In this document: positions 54,957 through 61,030 of the stretch, piece after piece | How positions within the stretch are numbered: position 1 is the first letter of the stretch | Layout of the letters: each line of letters starts with the position of its first letter | Origin: Gilvimarinus chinensis DSM 19667 | GTDB lineage: Bacteria > Pseudomonadota > Gammaproteobacteria > Pseudomonadales > Cellvibrionaceae | Assembly (NCBI RefSeq): GCF_000377745.1 | Contig: NZ_KB898707.1 | Location: 244,482 to 308,481, forward strand | DNA length: 64,000 nucleotides | Direction of reading: 5' to 3' | Position numbers and translations under genes: made by a program | Notes under the pieces: generated by a model | What the model was told of the DNA's origin: nothing | Databases searched by the model: none | Seen by the model: only the letters and a program-made list of their open reading frames with translations

Positions 54957-55077
54957 GAATAATTGCGCACTCGCTTAGTCGGTCGGACTGTAGGCAAGTG
55001 GTTTTAGTATAACCCTAGTGTAGGGGCAGACAACTATTAAATTGATCTCACTTCGTACAAATACATTTCTAAACGAT

Positions 55078-55650
55078 TCAGATTTCAAAGCCATCGACAG
55101 ATGATCGAACGAGAATTTCTTTACCACTCGAATAGGGGCTAACTTCACCAGCAATATTGTCTTTCCAGACTTGTGCGGCGACCAAAGATTTGAATATCGC
55201 TAGATACGAATCTATTTCGACACGCAGTCTCATGCCTACTGCATCGTAGGAATACATACTTTCAGCAAATCTTGGTGACTCGTCTTGAATGCAGCTCATC
55301 ATCGCGGCGACCTTTGCGCGATTATCAACACGCTCACGGACACCAGAGGTTAACCGAACAAACGAGTGAAGATTGAAACCAAATTCCTGTCCCTTGGCTA
55401 ACACCCTCCATCGTAGATCACCTATGCGCACCTCTGGCACATCGAAACGCTTCACATGACTACCAGCCCTTGGGCTGTAACACAGAGTGACATACTCACA
55501 CTCAGGGCCGTAGAAACGATGCCAGTCCTGCACAGCATTGCGAGCCGTCTGATCGGCTGCCTGTAGCTGCCGGACAATCTGATCTTTCCAGCGGTCAACG
55601 GAGTGACCGCCCTTATCCATTAAAAGGCCTTTTAAAGTAATGACCGCCAT
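55078..55650 (-). CDS. DUF3158-like ICE protein
   Basis: A 190-residue protein following the TIGR03761 gene, the usual position of DUF3158 in this ICE class. Motifs: GPECEYVTLCYSPRAGSHVKRFDVPEVRIGDLRWRVLAKGQEFGFNLHSFVRLTSGVRERVDNRAKVAAMM. Function unknown. The assignment rests on position, length and a general match. Confidence 0.65.
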   Translation of the reverse strand: MAVITLKGLLMDKGGHSVDRWKDQIVRQLQAADQTARNAVQDWHRFYGPECEYVTLCYSPRAGSHVKRFDVPEVRIGDLRWRVLAKGQEFGFNLHSFVRLTSGVRERVDNRAKVAAMMSCIQDESPRFAESMYSYDAVGMRLRVEIDSYLAIFKSLVAAQVWKDNIAGEVSPYSSGKEILVRSSVDGFEI

Positions 55651-55670
55651 ATGACCGATATTCCTCTCTG

Positions 55671-56522
55671 TCAGATATCCGATAGTGATTCTTGTCGGTC
55701 GTCCGCAGACTCACCGGTCTTGATTCGCGGCGCTAATTTTGCTCGACGCTCACCTTTACGAACATCCTCAGACAATGAGGGCATAGTCGGCTTGTGTGAC
55801 TCGTATACTTTCGCCGCACGTTGAGCCACTTTGTTGTTCGCGGCCAAATCATCACGCTTAACTGATGTATTCACCCAAAGACGACTCGCTTCAAACACTG
55901 ATCGAATCAATGATGAACACTTCACGATGCTGGCAGTCCAATCATCCTCAAACATGAGACCCATCTTCTTCGCGGTCATGGCAGATAACACCACTCGGTC
56001 AAACTGTGTCAGCAAGATAGCGGAACGGTAGGCCCAGGGCGAATAGAACTGAATATCCATCGTGGCCGGATCGACGCTATGGGTGTCCGGCATGTCGATA
56101 CCTTGAAGTTCAGTCTCCAGCATCTCCTCGATGTGTTTCATCTGCGCCCGGATAAAGGCAGTCGCATCCTCAAACTTTGTTTCAATCTCCAACAAAGCCT
56201 GATCCGCATAGGGATCATCATTCTCACTGGCGTGCCATATCTCCGCCACATTCTTGGCGAACCGTACCAGGCCAACGATTGGATAGATGTTCTTGTCTTT
56301 ATCACCACGACGCCCATAGAACAGGGCGTGTGCTTGCCGTGTTTCTAATGTGATCTTGCCACCGCCAGTCTCAAGCCTTCCAGGTCGCCCCTGAACTGAC
56401 GCAGGTTTGACAATGCTGTCGGCACCGTCTGGGTGCGACCGGTTCAGATTCCGTTTAGCCTCAGCACGCAGCTCCGCTTTCTCTTCCAAGTCCAGAATCG
56501 TTTCGTTTGTCTCATGTTCCAT
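55671..56522 (-). CDS. ICE protein, TIGR03761 family
   Basis: A 283-residue protein. GGGKITLETRQAHALFYGRRGDKDKNIYPIVGLVRFAKNVAEIWHASENDDPYADQALL is typical of TIGR03761 (PFL_4669-like), and SPWAYRSAILLTQFDRVVLSAMTA is the second conserved block. Ends with a basic tail. It is part of the replication/maintenance block; molecular function is not established. Confidence 0.88.
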   Translation of the reverse strand: MEHETNETILDLEEKAELRAEAKRNLNRSHPDGADSIVKPASVQGRPGRLETGGGKITLETRQAHALFYGRRGDKDKNIYPIVGLVRFAKNVAEIWHASENDDPYADQALLEIETKFEDATAFIRAQMKHIEEMLETELQGIDMPDTHSVDPATMDIQFYSPWAYRSAILLTQFDRVVLSAMTAKKMGLMFEDDWTASIVKCSSLIRSVFEASRLWVNTSVKRDDLAANNKVAQRAAKVYESHKPTMPSLSEDVRKGERRAKLAPRIKTGESADDRQESLSDI

Positions 56523-56558
56523 GATTGATCCCCCTAAGGTTGTAAACTTGTACCAGTC

Positions 56559-56795
56559 TCACCAACGAGACCCGCGCATTTTCTTTTGCATTTCTCGGTC
56601 ACTGATCATTTCTACAAAGTGACCTTCAATTTCGGATATCTCCAGTTGACCCTGTTCCAGACTCGTGGCTAACAGCATCAGCGATATTGCGCCACCGCGA
56701 ATGTATCCTTCGATGTATTCGCCATCAGCGGTCGATGCCATGGACGATAAGTCTACGGCGATGTCTCGCAGTGTTCTCGGGTTAAATTGTTCCAT
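56559..56795 (-). CDS. Hypothetical protein
   Basis: A 78-residue acidic helical protein (ATG 56795, GGAG upstream). A glycine-rich middle (EGYIRGGAISLMLLATSLEQGQLE) is followed by a basic end. Not recognised. Confidence 0.6.
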   Translation of the reverse strand: MEQFNPRTLRDIAVDLSSMASTADGEYIEGYIRGGAISLMLLATSLEQGQLEISEIEGHFVEMISDREMQKKMRGSRW

Positions 56796-56824
56796 TCTCA
56801 ATCTCCAACCGTATGGGTTTTTCT

Positions 56825-56847
56825 AATCCACTTGCCCCAAGTGGATT
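56825..56847. terminator. Palindromic hairpin
   Basis: AATCCACTT-GCCCC-AAGTGGATT, a perfect 9-bp stem with a 5-base loop downstream of the zinc-ribbon gene on the minus strand, next to the parS-like sequence. No T-run on the minus strand, so function is uncertain. Confidence 0.45.
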
Positions 56848-56850
56848 ATG

Positions 56851-56866
56851 TGTTTCACGTGGAATC
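56851..56866. promoter_or_regulatory. parS-like centromere sequence
   Basis: TGTTTCACGTGGAATC matches the bacterial parS palindrome TGTTTCACGTGGAACA at 14 of 16 positions, including the central CACGTG. It sits 2 bp from the end of the zinc-ribbon gene, within the ICE replication/partition block. It could recruit chromosomal or ICE ParB. Confidence 0.5.
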
Positions 56867-56867
56867 A

Positions 56868-57167
56868 TCAGCTTCCAGTTTCTTTGGATTTTTCAGGAAT
56901 TCGTATATTGCACTTCACGCACACATCAGGACCATGTTGGCCGTCGGGCCTCAGGGAATGATTGCATCGTTCTTCGCGTGCTTTCATGCGTGAGTCGTTG
57001 GTTGAAAACAAGTAGCGATAGTGCCTGCGATCTAGGCTGGTCACTTTTACGACGACCACCTTAACAGGAGGTTGGTTTTCACCGCCGTAGATTTCAGTCG
57101 TCAGCCCTGGAATGGGAATGTGACCTTCGCCTACGCCGCCATACCAAACAAATTCGACTCTAGCCAT
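56868..57167 (-). CDS. Small zinc-ribbon-like protein
   Basis: A 99-residue protein. Starts at ATG 57167 (GAGGTGGCC upstream), overlapping the preceding ORF by 8 bp. FVWYGGVGEGHIPIPGLTTEIYGGE is followed by CNHSLRPDGQHGPDVCVKC, a Cys/His cluster likely to bind zinc. Not assigned to a family. Confidence 0.6.
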   Translation of the reverse strand: MARVEFVWYGGVGEGHIPIPGLTTEIYGGENQPPVKVVVVKVTSLDRRHYRYLFSTNDSRMKAREERCNHSLRPDGQHGPDVCVKCNIRIPEKSKETGS

Positions 57168-57423
57168 TGGCCACCTCCAATCGAACTTTCGGAGTGATGT
57201 AAGTTTCAGCACTTTGGATGCTCACCGGACTCAGATTCAGAATGGGGTAACTTACCCCACTTTCGGCAGTCACCGGGATCAGCTTCGGGGTGTTGTAGGG
57301 TGCAACACTTGTCGCAGGCATCGGTCTCAGCTTCGGAGTGCGGTAAGTTACCGCACTTTGGATGTGCATCGGTCTCAGCTTCGGAGTGCGGTAAGTTACC
57401 GCACTTTGGATGTGCATCCTCAT
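57160..57423 (-). CDS. Repeat-encoded small protein between replication genes
   Basis: An 87-residue ORF whose ATG overlaps the replication-protein stop by 4 bp (ATGA) and whose end overlaps the next gene by 8 bp. This suggests real translation. The protein is five 16-residue units; two are identical (MHIQSAVTYRTPKLRP) and three are diverged (e.g. MPATSVAPYNTPKLIP). The repeats come from the 48-bp DNA repeat. The selected function may lie in the DNA or RNA rather than the peptide. Confidence 0.5.
   Translation of the reverse strand: MRMHIQSAVTYRTPKLRPMHIQSAVTYRTPKLRPMPATSVAPYNTPKLIPVTAESGVSYPILNLSPVSIQSAETYITPKVRLEVANG
57178..57417. repeat. Five exact-length 48-bp tandem palindromic repeats
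   Basis: Units begin at 57178, 57226, 57274, 57322 and 57370. The last two are identical. Each has a 19-base palindrome at its centre: GTGCGGTAAGTTACCGCAC (units 4 and 5), GTGTTGTAGGGTGCAACAC (3), ATGGGGTAACTTACCCCAC (2) and GTGATGTAAGTTTCAGCAC (1). Stem positions 4/16 are C-G, T-A or G-C and 5/15 are G-C or T-A, so pairing is kept while bases change. Confidence 0.95.
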
Positions 57424-58778
57424 ATCGCACCACCATGGCCAATCAAGAAATGCGGCTCACTATCCTCAATGGCTTCCTTCACCATCTGTCCCCACTCATC
57501 CAGCATCATGACGTTGTCCCGACGACGGTCTACCAAGGCTTTCGTGAAGCTAACGATGTTGCGGATGGGTTCAGTACCGGGATGCTTGACGTTGAAGATC
57601 ATACGGCCGAAGAGTTGGCACATCACGTCACGTCGAGCGTCCTCACCAAGACCCAGCAGTACACGGCCAATCACCGGGATGTTGGTTCGATAGACTTCCC
57701 AGAGGAACAGCATGGGTTGGGTGGTATCAGCGACCAGCCAGCCGAGATGAGAGGCGGTCAGGCACTCGGCCAAGGGTATATCCAGGTCAGCGTCGTGCCG
57801 CCGTGCTGGTTCAGTGGAGGGGTGAATTCCCTTACGCGCGCGCGTAGTAATATATTTATTAATATTAATACTACTACTACCAATACTACGGGGATAAAAA
57901 ATATTTTTTTCGGAGCCGTGTAAAGAATTTTCTTTCTCGGCCAAATTTTGATCAAGAGCCGTGTTAAGATTTTTAACATGGCTATTTTGATCCGCGTTAA
58001 AATTCTTATCATGGCTTTCCAAAGGCTCCTCTGAAGCCCGCATTACTTCGTTTAAAGCGATTTTCTCACCGGTATTCTCACCCTCAGCGTCAGCCAGAGC
58101 CGTGTTAAAATTTTTAACATGGCTATCGTACGCTTCACTCGTTGTGATCAAAGTGCTTTTCCCAAAAACGGCTTCTCTCAATCTGTCTTCCATGGACTCC
58201 AATTGAGTGGGGCTTCTTGGGGTCGACTCCAGCGCACTAATTTGAGCGAGAACCTGGCTGGCCAGGTTGCGATTGGCTTTACCCGCACTAGCACCACTTA
58301 CCTGAGCTTCTAGGAACTGTACATACCCAGAATCCAGCTCCAGTGTGTCTGCCAAACTCAACGGTTCCTCATGAAGCAAATACACATCGCCAACAAACCG
58401 CTGAAGCTCATCGCGAACAGTACGGCAGAAGGTCATCCATCGATTGATACGCAATGTTGCCCGAGAGTTCGCTACGGTAGGTGCTGAACACACCATGGCT
58501 GCACTCAACTCCTCACGAGAGGGTACATAGCCTGGCATCTGTGGGTTTGATATAAACGCCCTCAGAACCTGCCATAGGAGTTTATCCGCCGGCCTCAGCT
58601 GACCATCAAAGATTAAGTGATTGGGCACACTATGATGAAAGTTACCGGTAAAGATGACGCCCATGCTGGTACCGGAGCTGCCGGTGGGGTTGGCGCCACC
58701 GCTGTCCATGCGTCGCTGTTGAAGCAAACTTTGCTCGGCAAATGAAATCTGCTTGATGATAGGAGACAGGTCGGACAT
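57420..58778 (-). CDS. ICE replication protein, STY4528 family
   Basis: A 452-residue protein. HSVPNHLIFDGQLRPADKLLWQVLRAFISNPQMPGYVPSREELSAAMVCSAPTVANSRATLRINRWMTFCRTV is a replication-initiator-like winged helix. A central low-complexity region with repeated SHVKNFN/NTAL and EKNIFYPRS segments follows, then a conserved C-terminal domain. The ATG 58778 overlaps the DUF2857 stop (TGATG). Confidence 0.85.
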   Translation of the reverse strand: MSDLSPIIKQISFAEQSLLQQRRMDSGGANPTGSSGTSMGVIFTGNFHHSVPNHLIFDGQLRPADKLLWQVLRAFISNPQMPGYVPSREELSAAMVCSAPTVANSRATLRINRWMTFCRTVRDELQRFVGDVYLLHEEPLSLADTLELDSGYVQFLEAQVSGASAGKANRNLASQVLAQISALESTPRSPTQLESMEDRLREAVFGKSTLITTSEAYDSHVKNFNTALADAEGENTGEKIALNEVMRASEEPLESHDKNFNADQNSHVKNLNTALDQNLAEKENSLHGSEKNIFYPRSIGSSSININKYITTRARKGIHPSTEPARRHDADLDIPLAECLTASHLGWLVADTTQPMLFLWEVYRTNIPVIGRVLLGLGEDARRDVMCQLFGRMIFNVKHPGTEPIRNIVSFTKALVDRRRDNVMMLDEWGQMVKEAIEDSEPHFLIGHGGAI

Positions 58779-59338
58779 CAAATGCCCTCCATGATCGTGT
58801 TCCACAATCTGTCGATTCCTATGCCTGTCGACTCTGAAAGAGAGCACAACTTGCGTAATTCAGACAGGTTGGAGTTTTTCAACTGTTCCCATTGGCGAAG
58901 AGCATCCAGCTCTTCAGATTCTGTCAGTGACTCGATTCGTCCGCGCTCCTGTGGCGGCAGACCCAGAGCTTGCTTGCGCTGGTCATAGTCTCTTCGACTG
59001 ATACCCGTCAGCGCGTTCAGCATGGGTTGTCTTATCCCCAGTCGAATCGCTCGGTCAGTATCGGTCTCTTCGGAGTGCTCTATCTCCTGGTGATTCAGGA
59101 AATTACTGAGCGCCTTCCCGTTAAATGATACATCTACGAGGGGTGCCGGAAAGTCGGTCATACGATCCAACGCTCGTAGCGTGACAGATCGCAATAAGTC
59201 GTAGCAGGTCTCCTCAACGCCCATCTTTTTCAAGAGGGCGAAGTTGGAGGTTTGAGCAGCCGTAGCCGCGGTATACAGTGCCTCCCTGTTCAGAGAAGCC
59301 AACTGTTTCGAATTGATGGTTTTGTTGTCTCGCCCCAC
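58778..59338 (-). CDS. DUF2857/STY4527-like ICE protein
   Basis: A 186-residue protein. GTG 59338 is preferred because AAGGAGG lies 7 bases upstream; an ATG at 59368 has no ribosome site. ALTGISRRDYDQRKQALGLPPQERGRIESLTESEELDALRQWEQL resembles an HTH followed by an acidic helix. It sits between parB and the replication gene, as usual in PFGI-1-class elements. Confidence 0.78.
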   Translation of the reverse strand: MGRDNKTINSKQLASLNREALYTAATAAQTSNFALLKKMGVEETCYDLLRSVTLRALDRMTDFPAPLVDVSFNGKALSNFLNHQEIEHSEETDTDRAIRLGIRQPMLNALTGISRRDYDQRKQALGLPPQERGRIESLTESEELDALRQWEQLKNSNLSELRKLCSLSESTGIGIDRLWNTIMEGI

Positions 59339-59374
59339 AGCGATACCTCCTTGCGTGATCGTGCGCATCGTTGT

Positions 59375-61030
59375 TTACTTCGATTCTAAAAACAGGCTCG
59401 TGTAGTCGTCGGCACAATGTTGCCTAATGGCTGCTAACGCTTTGTCAAAAGCGAGTAACCCCTGCTGGCTCTTTTTATGCTGGGCGGATGCGCCCTCGTA
59501 ATCCGGCAAGGTTCTTAGCATGTTGGTGTGTATATAGGCTTGCTGGACGCCCACAATCTCGAATAGCCGCATAAACGGAAAGGGCAGCATGGCATTGATT
59601 GCTTCAACCACGTCGTCCTGACCTTTCTCGGCACAATCATGCGCAATACCGATGAACGGAATCATGAGCCCGTAAGCCCACAATTTCTGAATAGGCCTTA
59701 GCTCGGACAACATCGTCTCGAAACCACCAAACAAATCAGCCGCGATATGCCACCCGATACCAGGTGCGGTGTCGTATTCACCGTAGGTAGGCATTAAGAG
59801 GTGATCGATGTCGTGCACCTCAGCGACCATACAGCTGGCGAGATACGATTCTTGTAGAAGATCGTCCAGCGTCTTCGGCTGGAAATTTCCTTCCCGCCCC
59901 GCAATTGAAAGTTGATCGCTCCCGGCGGGAGTGTCATCTTGTGTAGAGCCTGGCGTTGCTCTGGCTGCTGTTACAGCTGGCGCTTCATTCTTGCTTGGTG
60001 TCGCAACTTGTTGCGTCGAGGCTCCAGGCGCGCTGCTAGGCTCTTGGATGGGGCGCTGTGACGGTGCCGAATTGCTGGCCTCAGGTGCAGCTGGAGCTGG
60101 TGAGCTCGAGGACTCTAGCTGAGCATTTGGATGATTAGGCTGAGGCGATTTAACACCTGAAGGCTTGCCGCCTTTCATGATGCTGAAAATCTCCGAACTG
60201 ACAGCACTGAAAGGCTCGTCCACAGCGTCTGAAAATTTGATGCTCATTAACTGAAAGAAACCATCAAAATCAAAAGAGACGTCATCAAACTCTTTCAGCG
60301 TGTTCTGCCAAAGAGAATCCAAATCCTCTTTAGGCTCTTCACCGTTTTCAATCAGTGAATCCCAGTAGGCTTTAAAAGCATTTTCATAAGAACGGATTTT
60401 CTTAACGGTTGGTACGCCAGCACCTGCCCACAATAGGTCCGGAACATGCTCATGAAGTGAGTCAACTGCGTATAAAAGAACAGATAGATTGCTTGAGTCG
60501 ATACCCCAACCTTTAGCTTTCATCCGGTCGGCAGCCTTACGCATGGATACCTTACCTTCTTTGTCTTCGATCAAAGCAATCCAACGCTTAGCGGCTAAGG
60601 CGCGCTCGATGAGCTTCATATCCCCGCGCAAATCGTTCTCTACCAAGTGTCCGGCTAACGACTCTTCATCGTCGACCCACGGCTTAAAAGTGACCTGGTG
60701 CCGAAAAAACTTTTCGTCGCCGGTCTCTTCCCAAAGCTCCTGCAGAGCTTGAAGACGTGTATTACCGCCGTCGGCAATTTGATACGGATCATCAACACTT
60801 TTACGAGTGACATTAAAACGATGATCGAGGCCTCTGGCCTTGATGGACGCCTTAATGTCATCGAACTTTGGGTTTACCGACTGACGCGGATTGAATTCAC
60901 TGGGTACCAGTTCATCCAAAGTGACCGTGATTTCCGTTGGAATTGCGGGGTCTTTACGTATCGCTTCGACAGTGCGTGACTGTCGTTTCAGCCGCTCAGA
61001 CAAATCTACAGGTTTGTTCTTAGAGGCCAT
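59375..61030 (-). CDS. parB: ICE ParB-family protein (TIGR03764-like)
   Basis: A 551-residue protein. N-terminal ParB/Spo0J nuclease-like domain: VTLDELVPSEFNPRQSVNPKFDDIKASIKARGLDHRFNVTR, DGGNTRLQALQELWEE and HLVENDLRGDMKLIERALAAKRWI, then an HTH region. A Pro/Ser/Ala-rich linker (~ residues 300-380) joins a C-terminal domain. It works with the adjacent ParA to keep the excised ICE in cells. Confidence 0.9.
   Translation of the reverse strand: MASKNKPVDLSERLKRQSRTVEAIRKDPAIPTEITVTLDELVPSEFNPRQSVNPKFDDIKASIKARGLDHRFNVTRKSVDDPYQIADGGNTRLQALQELWEETGDEKFFRHQVTFKPWVDDEESLAGHLVENDLRGDMKLIERALAAKRWIALIEDKEGKVSMRKAADRMKAKGWGIDSSNLSVLLYAVDSLHEHVPDLLWAGAGVPTVKKIRSYENAFKAYWDSLIENGEEPKEDLDSLWQNTLKEFDDVSFDFDGFFQLMSIKFSDAVDEPFSAVSSEIFSIMKGGKPSGVKSPQPNHPNAQLESSSSPAPAAPEASNSAPSQRPIQEPSSAPGASTQQVATPSKNEAPAVTAARATPGSTQDDTPAGSDQLSIAGREGNFQPKTLDDLLQESYLASCMVAEVHDIDHLLMPTYGEYDTAPGIGWHIAADLFGGFETMLSELRPIQKLWAYGLMIPFIGIAHDCAEKGQDDVVEAINAMLPFPFMRLFEIVGVQQAYIHTNMLRTLPDYEGASAQHKKSQQGLLAFDKALAAIRQHCADDYTSLFLESK

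Follow-up and report, generated by a model that had tools for sequence, protein, structure and literature searches.

Immediately behind a gene of the STY4528 family, Gilvimarinus chinensis DSM 19667 carries a tandem array of palindromes whose two arms change together from unit to unit. What keeps these arms paired, whether a duplex DNA site, a hairpin or an encoded repetitive protein, and which protein the array serves are the questions raised by this locus. The stretch of DNA analyzed here, 64,000 nucleotides in all, is referred to as the window, and its features are collected in Table 1. A previous reading from the letters alone (the sequence-only reading) had described five 48-bp tandem units with one palindrome each; this description was confirmed by TRF, which gave a period of 48 at 57188-57418 (4.8 copies, 74% matches), and by pair counts in the unit palindromes, scored as 21 bases in the minus-strand reading. 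The stem pair switches that it had named (C-G/T-A/G-C and G-C/T-A) are present at both positions. Its account of the junctions also holds: ATGA joins the stop codon of the STY4528-family gene to the start of the 87-aa ORF through the array, and at its far end this ORF runs 8 bp into the next gene. An exact-pattern search of the organism's own genome returned the array as its sole match.

Table 1. Features at and around the palindrome array, by position in the window
Feature	Position	Strand	Remark
AcaB/PFL_4669-family gene, beyond the putative origin segment	55671..56522	-	TIGR03761 E 8e-51; PF08900
Small gene after the array	56868..57167	-	ATG at 57165-57167; ribosome-site-like GGAGGTGG just before it
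ORF of 87 aa through the array, 16-residue repeat	57160..57423	-	probably by-product
Array of five 48-bp units, one odd-centred palindrome of ~21 bp per unit	57178..57417	-	
Unit 5 palindrome	57193..57213	.	8/10 pairs, imperfect
Unit 4 palindrome	57241..57261	.	9/10 pairs
Unit 3 palindrome	57289..57309	.	7/10 pairs, imperfect
Unit 2 palindrome	57337..57357	.	10/10 pairs; identical copy of unit 1
Unit 1 palindrome	57385..57405	.	10/10 Watson-Crick pairs
STY4528-family gene, from likely ATG	57420..58778	-	NF040582 E 5e-38; proposed initiator
Linker-coding part of that gene (about residues 208-331)	57786..58157	-	holds in-gene DNA elements; coordinates derived from structure model
GC cluster beside TAGTAGTAG run	57835-57852		
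TAGTAGTAG run in A+T-rich stretch	57861..57880	-	unwinding-element-like
Degenerate copies of the 23-bp palindrome	57959-57981; 57992-58014		9/11 and 7/11 pairs, respectively
A+T-rich 23-bp palindrome	58100..58122	.	10/11 pairs

The genes around the array encode ParB (TIGR03764), a DUF2857 protein, and a member of the AcaB/PFL_4669 family (TIGR03761), and a nearby ParA matches NF041546 at an E value of 2e-17, under the cut-off of that model. On these family matches, the surroundings of the array are those of the predicted replication block of an ICE of the PFGI-1/SPI-7 type. The small gene after the array has its own ribosome-site-like GGAGGTGG and so may not require that the array be translated. 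A 25-bp palindrome, TAATCCACTTGGGGCAAGTGGATTA, lies between this gene and the next at 56824-56848; next to it is a weak parS-like site with 3 mismatches (56851-56866), which is also seen in L007 and L008. Such sites number 3 among the oriented STY4528 loci, all in Gilvimarinus; the site near the array was rejected as a candidate, as one with 3 mismatches occurs in 23 of 100 shuffles, which is chance level. Among the neighboring proteins, the DUF2857 protein (58778-59368) matched FlhD marginally (E 0.079); IncC transfer is controlled by FlhD-like regulators. A comparison of the AcaB-like protein with viral contigs found no relative, and PDB sequence searches with this protein and with the STY4528 alignment gave no usable result.

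Palindromes behind STY4528 are not local to Gilvimarinus; as judged from the loci compared here, they are frequent in ICEs of the PFGI-1/SPI-7/pKLC102 type and often form arrays. STY4528-family loci were gathered from genome searches and 11 plasmid records. The 73 oriented loci were reduced to 61 by dropping 12 near-identical or truncated ones (L014, L020, L024, L032, L044, L058, L073, L074, L076, L079, L080, and L082); L047 gave no tblastn match, L037, L045, and L046 were not counted, and further genome searches in other orders and families added two new loci only (L051 and L052). The sequence-only reading had proposed an alignment of homologous ICEs, and in these the number of units varies and stem covariation recurs: at the position where the window has 5 units, G. 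gilvus and G414 have 2 each and G. polysaccharolyticus has 3. The 63.5 kb behind the 61 STY4528 genes hold 104 palindromes with nine perfect pairs, versus 0 in 36.6 kb pooled from the initial 600 bp of each of these genes, and the corresponding counts are 76 versus 13 for 8/9 pairs and 139 versus 106 for 7/9 pairs. A palindrome with at least 8/9 pairs lies within -20 to +400 of the STY4528 stop in 47/61 loci, compared to 10/61 for an equally long control interval taken from the start of the gene; 24 of the 61 loci have at least two in this interval, and in 35 the first palindrome begins no more than 60 bp from the stop. In 14/61 loci, ICEHin1056 included, no such palindrome was found at -20 to +400 of the stop. 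Neighboring units are mostly 33-58 bp apart (range 31 to 60), with no common helical phase when judged by eye. In two plasmids of P. aeruginosa, the arrays consist of 17 and 13 repeats of a 57-bp unit. For pKLC102, Klockgether in 2004 reportedly described 57-bp repeats. Several smaller variations were observed. The related elements L061-L065, L067, and L025 have no array but a single palindrome or a pair of them directly behind STY4528 (e.g., CTATACCAGTGGTATAG in L061), and downstream of STY4528 in L017, two kinds of palindrome alternate in one array at a spacing of 49-50 bp. A lone palindrome of the same class in L049, ~3.75 kb before the STY4528 stop in the dnaB gene region, is a possible outlying site.

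Covariation of the arms was gauged in Gilvimarinus and, more broadly, within arrays. The Gilvimarinus set comprises 12 units (10 distinct) that were chosen by position and not by pairing. In this set, which comes from four loci that are close relatives and in which units within one array are not independent, the covariation score was 0.309 versus 0.118 for shuffled units, with 0/500 shuffles as high, and sliding the partners gave scores of 0.03-0.09. Counting G-U, 87% of cells were paired versus 74.8% after shuffling, and both sides had changed in 12 cells versus 5.1 in shuffles. Two cruder measures, pairs with any double change and pair types, showed no excess in these units (119/500 and 341/500 shuffles, respectively). 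Within arrays, six period-defined sets (five array registers and the Gilvimarinus set, picked among the arrays seen) had Watson-Crick pairs in 111 of 129 informative cells, where 2000 shuffles gave a mean of 70.2 and a maximum of 85; L054 had no informative column, and L050 alone showed no excess at one of three columns. With covariation holding in the relatives, the sequence-only reading is supported in that pairing is kept at the level of nucleic acid.

Covarying stems are also what would be seen if the units acted as hairpins, of RNA or of single-strand DNA, with a role in priming or in the control of translation or mRNA stability. The array RNA does fold better than its shuffles (z of -3.36), as is expected of any array of palindromes. 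The mismatches point the other way: G-T and A-C number 17 and 15 in array members with at least 7/9 pairs, and 53 and 53 in a wider set that includes chance matches, so that G-U, which an RNA stem should tolerate, is not in excess. In addition, among palindromes chosen on positions 2-8 only, 98 of 112 have a complementary innermost pair (89 as A-S-T or G-S-C), a pair that a hairpin is unable to form, and a search of window positions 55000-59500 against Rfam at an E value of 0.5 gave no match. The absence of a G-T excess, together with the complementary innermost pair, argues against RNA hairpins and for two-fold symmetric sites in duplex DNA. The suggestion that RNA hairpins control the downstream gene is not supported on these grounds, and we regard hairpins in general as highly improbable, with single-strand DNA priming less well excluded than RNA.

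Taken as duplex sites, the palindromes have odd centers in 112 cases versus even centers in 8 (an even center needs eight perfect pairs in this count, an odd one seven), and they conserve an outer GTG/CAC and an R-S-Y center. The cores between these letters differ within a single array, such that L060 has CGGGCCG beside CCACTGG and L011 has at least 5 kinds; a plain dimer site of fixed sequence therefore does not explain the arms. The near-identical repeats expected of an iteron origin are likewise not what is found, as the arms differ between units and the pairing is kept. Because the two halves of an ordinary dimer site vary independently, covariation within an array needs an extra assumption, which may be either selection or template switching. 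Under template switching, the sites would be ordinary ones conserved at their contact letters, with one arm copied onto the other or the spacer flipped and no selection for pairing. In the available portions of the reports, this process is described as a maker of compensatory changes (PMC8794818) and spacer inversion is recorded (PMC8604942), and within our arrays both orientations of the center occur (ACT/AGT and GCC/GGC). Mismatches beside long perfect arms nevertheless persist, at position 10 in 15/17 units of L048 and at position 9 in 6/7 units of L011. These persistent mismatches and the conserved ends and center indicate that symmetry has not simply spread outward, and we argue that template switching does not act freely in the arrays. 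It may hold together with the origin-site explanation; as the source of the pairing, we consider it possible, though not the outcome we would expect.

A different explanation is that the ORF through the array yields a real repetitive protein, in which case the DNA palindromes would follow from the protein or the sequence would be read twice. The coupled frame is open in 4/4 Gilvimarinus loci (5, 2, 2, and 3 units). In three Pseudomonas plasmids, an overlapping frame that starts in ATGA likewise covers the array from end to end (L048 to +1118, L060 to +890, and L050 to +869), and in L066 an open frame starts in TTGA and reaches +563; in all four, the palindrome center takes up the codon position that it has in Gilvimarinus. 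In L048, L060, and L050, these are unannotated frames of 290-370 codons, running from the STY4528 stop through arrays of 57-bp units. Recurrence of the coupled frame in Pseudomonas arrays speaks against a mere local accident. On the other hand, of the 32 non-Gilvimarinus loci with at least two palindromes, 9 have an open frame between the STY4528 stop and the final palindrome, and 23 have stops in all three frames over that span, which in some of the 23 ends at a far, perhaps chance, palindrome. This count took all 73 oriented loci, of which 35 have at least two palindromes, duplicates included. Among the loci with at least 8 units (L011, L022, L035, L048, L050, L054, L060, and L066), a frame is open in 5/8.

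A period divisible by 3 means that units stay open together, which counts toward the ORF being a by-product. Several sequence comparisons bear on the same point. The Pseudomonas arrays also have a second frame that is nearly stop-free. When differences between units were sorted by phase, the coupled phase had the largest silent fraction in 2/7 arrays only (L048 and L050). Over the 18 codons of unit 1, L006 and L008 differ by 1 silent and 3 replacement changes, compared to 76 and 26 in the STY4528 gene. In this unit, an inner A-T pair has become C-G through one silent change and one that turns Tyr into Asp; on the two sequences, it is the pairing that is kept and not the amino acid. Used as a query against 369 genomes of the class, the 87-aa ORF found its own genome only, and it had no match in Pfam or NCBIfam. 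The sequence-only reading had allowed for either a by-product or a real protein, and had named broken stems with conservation of the protein alone as the pattern that would count against selected pairing. What the homologues display is covariation and many broken frames, but with three open frames in Pseudomonas. The by-product has thus gained from the frames broken in 23/32 loci, and the protein is kept alive by the coupled frame in Pseudomonas. A protein role for the array ORF is unlikely in our judgment, and we would be surprised to find a repetitive protein behind the palindromes.

If the array is a set of duplex sites, the protein that it serves as operator or centromere could be the AcaB-like, ParB, or DUF2857 protein and not STY4528. 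AcaB is a DNA-binding regulator, an AcaB-family gene follows the array, and the model of its product matches the AcaB crystal structure 6n8a (Foldseek E 7e-6). Eight of 78 plasmid records with AcaB-type genes were examined. Seven of these eight are without detectable STY4528, meaning that they fall outside the 33 records matching STY4528 at an E value of 0.01; most have DUF2857/STY4526 and some have ParB. No array was found within 1300 bp before AcaB in any of the seven. L100 has one palindrome of the A+T type in a ParB-like coding region, and elsewhere in these seven plasmids there are three perfect palindromes, one of which, in mobH of L102, is of the GTG...CAC type and tells against the argument from the missing arrays. 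The eighth plasmid, L104, has a diverged STY4528 (E 5e-4, 44 positions) with a palindrome ~33 bp behind it. In this eight-plasmid set, the array follows STY4528 and not AcaB. For this reason, a ParB/centromere or AcaB site is our second choice, which is also where the centromere-like sites proposed from the sequence now stand, given that AcaB-type plasmids, some with ParB, show no array without STY4528. We rate as unlikely the view that one of these three proteins, and not STY4528, is the reader.

The STY4528-family protein itself was modeled as a winged-helix N domain, a disordered, low-confidence linker, and a helical C domain. Among the folds listed, the closest neighbors of the N domain are replication proteins, with primosomal DnaB (Z 8.7, rmsd 2.6, 102 aligned) and RctB domain 1 (Z 7.0) first, then the plasmid Rep/initiator chains 4pql, 4pt7, 5kbj, and 4pta (Z 5.7-6.4), which we take to be RepA_N proteins, and DnaD (Z 5.4). 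RNA polymerase III (Z 5.8) and TFIIE (Z 5.3) rank between the replication proteins, and the likeness of the modeled N domain to replication proteins is moderate. Foldseek with the STY4528 model gave no match with an E value below 0.001. At the level of sequence families, Pfam HTH_36 matches 11/43 members (best 1e-10), the RepC C-terminal family (RP-C_C) marginally matches 3/43 (best E 0.048), and NF040974 matches 1/43 (E 0.075). The window's own STY4528-family protein matches no Pfam family.

The gene for this protein holds a second DNA element. In the window, it spans 57835-58122, inside the DNA for the predicted disordered linker, and the lowest GC content of the profiled stretch (0.396) is at 57875-58124. 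Across the family, TAGTAGT or TAGTACG lies mostly 418-562 bp before the STY4528 stop (range 367-799), usually with an A+T-rich stretch after it and often with GCGCGCG, and in many loci it is preceded by 23-bp A+T-rich palindromes of the type CCRN17YGG. This motif, which may resemble DnaA-trios, occurs at -900 to -300 from the stop in 42/60 genes and 1 time in 29 kb elsewhere in genes; L007 was also left out of the in-gene motif, serine, and DnaA-box counts (n = 60). Serine runs use AGT for 88/94 codons, compared to 442/2103 over all serines of STY4528 genes. The AGT bias and the placement of the TAG motif argue for a constraint on the DNA and not only on the protein. As for other marks of an origin, the GC-skew profile has no clear turn at the array, and the DnaA-box pattern TTWTNCAMA has no match in 2 kb of the window; at least one match is present in 24/60 STY4528 loci, where ~0.24 is expected per locus.

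Three kinds of known or predicted origin were compared with the locus. The putative oriV of PFGI-1 (Pseudomonas Pf-5) lies before the PFL_4669 gene and has an A+T-rich half with 23-bp palindromes and a G+C-rich half of tandem repeats, each with an inverted repeat of ~21 bp; the same account, in its available portion, states that PFGI-1 encodes no Rep protein (PMC2647930). From the part of the ICEHin1056 paper at hand, this oriV prediction extends to pKLC102, SPI-7, and PAPI (PMC2258188). The window shares the position between STY4528-type and PFL_4669 genes (NF040582, TIGR03764, and TIGR03761), the tandem repeats with an inverted repeat of ~21 bp in each, and the A+T-rich half, which here has one good 23-bp palindrome (10/11) and two degenerate ones at a GC content of 0.396. 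It differs in its 48-bp unit, its five copies, and the location of the array inside an open frame. Covariation does not figure in the available text on PFGI-1, nor is the A+T-rich half placed there inside the STY4528-type gene (PMC2647930).

In the second case, that of RepABC plasmids, oriV lies inside repC; in p42d, silent changes in an A+T-rich region in mid-gene abolish replication, and the available account reports repC to be without iterons or repeats (PMC3155836). Both systems encode ParA, ParB, and a replication protein with a helix-turn-helix, all in the same orientation, and both have an A+T-rich DNA element within the replication gene (in the window, the STY4528 gene). Two palindrome families set the window apart from p42d, and its sequence similarity to RepC is marginal. 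Iteron origins of the RepA and RctB types, finally, share with the window tandem sites that adjoin the initiator gene and an A+T-rich stretch, and initiators of these types are among the N-domain fold neighbors. Iterons keep one sequence, whereas here the letters differ between the units of one array and the symmetry is kept. We found no description of covarying arms, of a TAG motif acting at the DNA level, or of STY4528 as a RepC-like initiator in the literature covered, which took in few subscription papers. By these comparisons, the array is probably a further member of the predicted putative oriV kind, and the covariation, the in-gene TAG motif, and the reading of STY4528 as an initiator appear to be new.

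Among the interpretations offered by the sequence-only reading, the one we retain as best is that of iteron-like sites, located at a replication origin, to which a dimeric protein would bind, with the palindromes as candidate sites. The comparative data place tandem, two-fold symmetric palindromes with covarying arms behind STY4528, and A+T-rich palindromes and a DNA-constrained TAGTAGTAG run within it. We lean toward a model in which the array makes up the downstream half of the oriV of a PFGI-1/SPI-7-type ICE and STY4528 is a RepC-like initiator with its origin in and behind its own gene. In this model, STY4528 would resemble the RepC protein of RepABC plasmids in its mode of action, with the origin lying inside the gene that encodes it. 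A dimer would bind the palindromes as duplex DNA, load on the array, and open the A+T-rich stretch for helicase and Ssb upon ICE excision or transfer. The sites would be read mainly by their GTG...CAC ends, R-S-Y center, and two-fold symmetry, leaving inner letters to drift in pairs; the arms would stay paired either because asymmetric sites are selected against or because template switching copies one arm onto the other. Counting against the oriV model are the 14/61 loci without a palindrome, the moderate Z values, the lack of a DnaA-box match in the window, and the partly degenerate in-gene palindromes of the window. The coupled ORF that recurs in Pseudomonas elements also counts against it, as a pure DNA site needs none. 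A wider proposition, in which one initiator reads the palindromes by symmetry and not by sequence, units with dissimilar arms work for one origin, asymmetric units are purged, and the STY4528 gene provides both initiator and origin for the whole ICE family, is put forward tentatively, and we consider it doubtful.

ICEs of the SPI-7/pKLC102/PFGI-1 type move metabolic, virulence, and resistance genes between bacteria. In the portions of the literature available here, their vegetative origin is treated as putative (PMC2647930 and PMC2258188). If the oriV model is true, an initiator would be named for an ICE family of which one member has been stated to be without a Rep protein. The covarying sites would also allow a natural check on the assumption that compensatory change is always a sign of selection for a hairpin. 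Together, the paired changes and the origin-like stretch in the neighboring gene make the proposed initiator protein directly testable.
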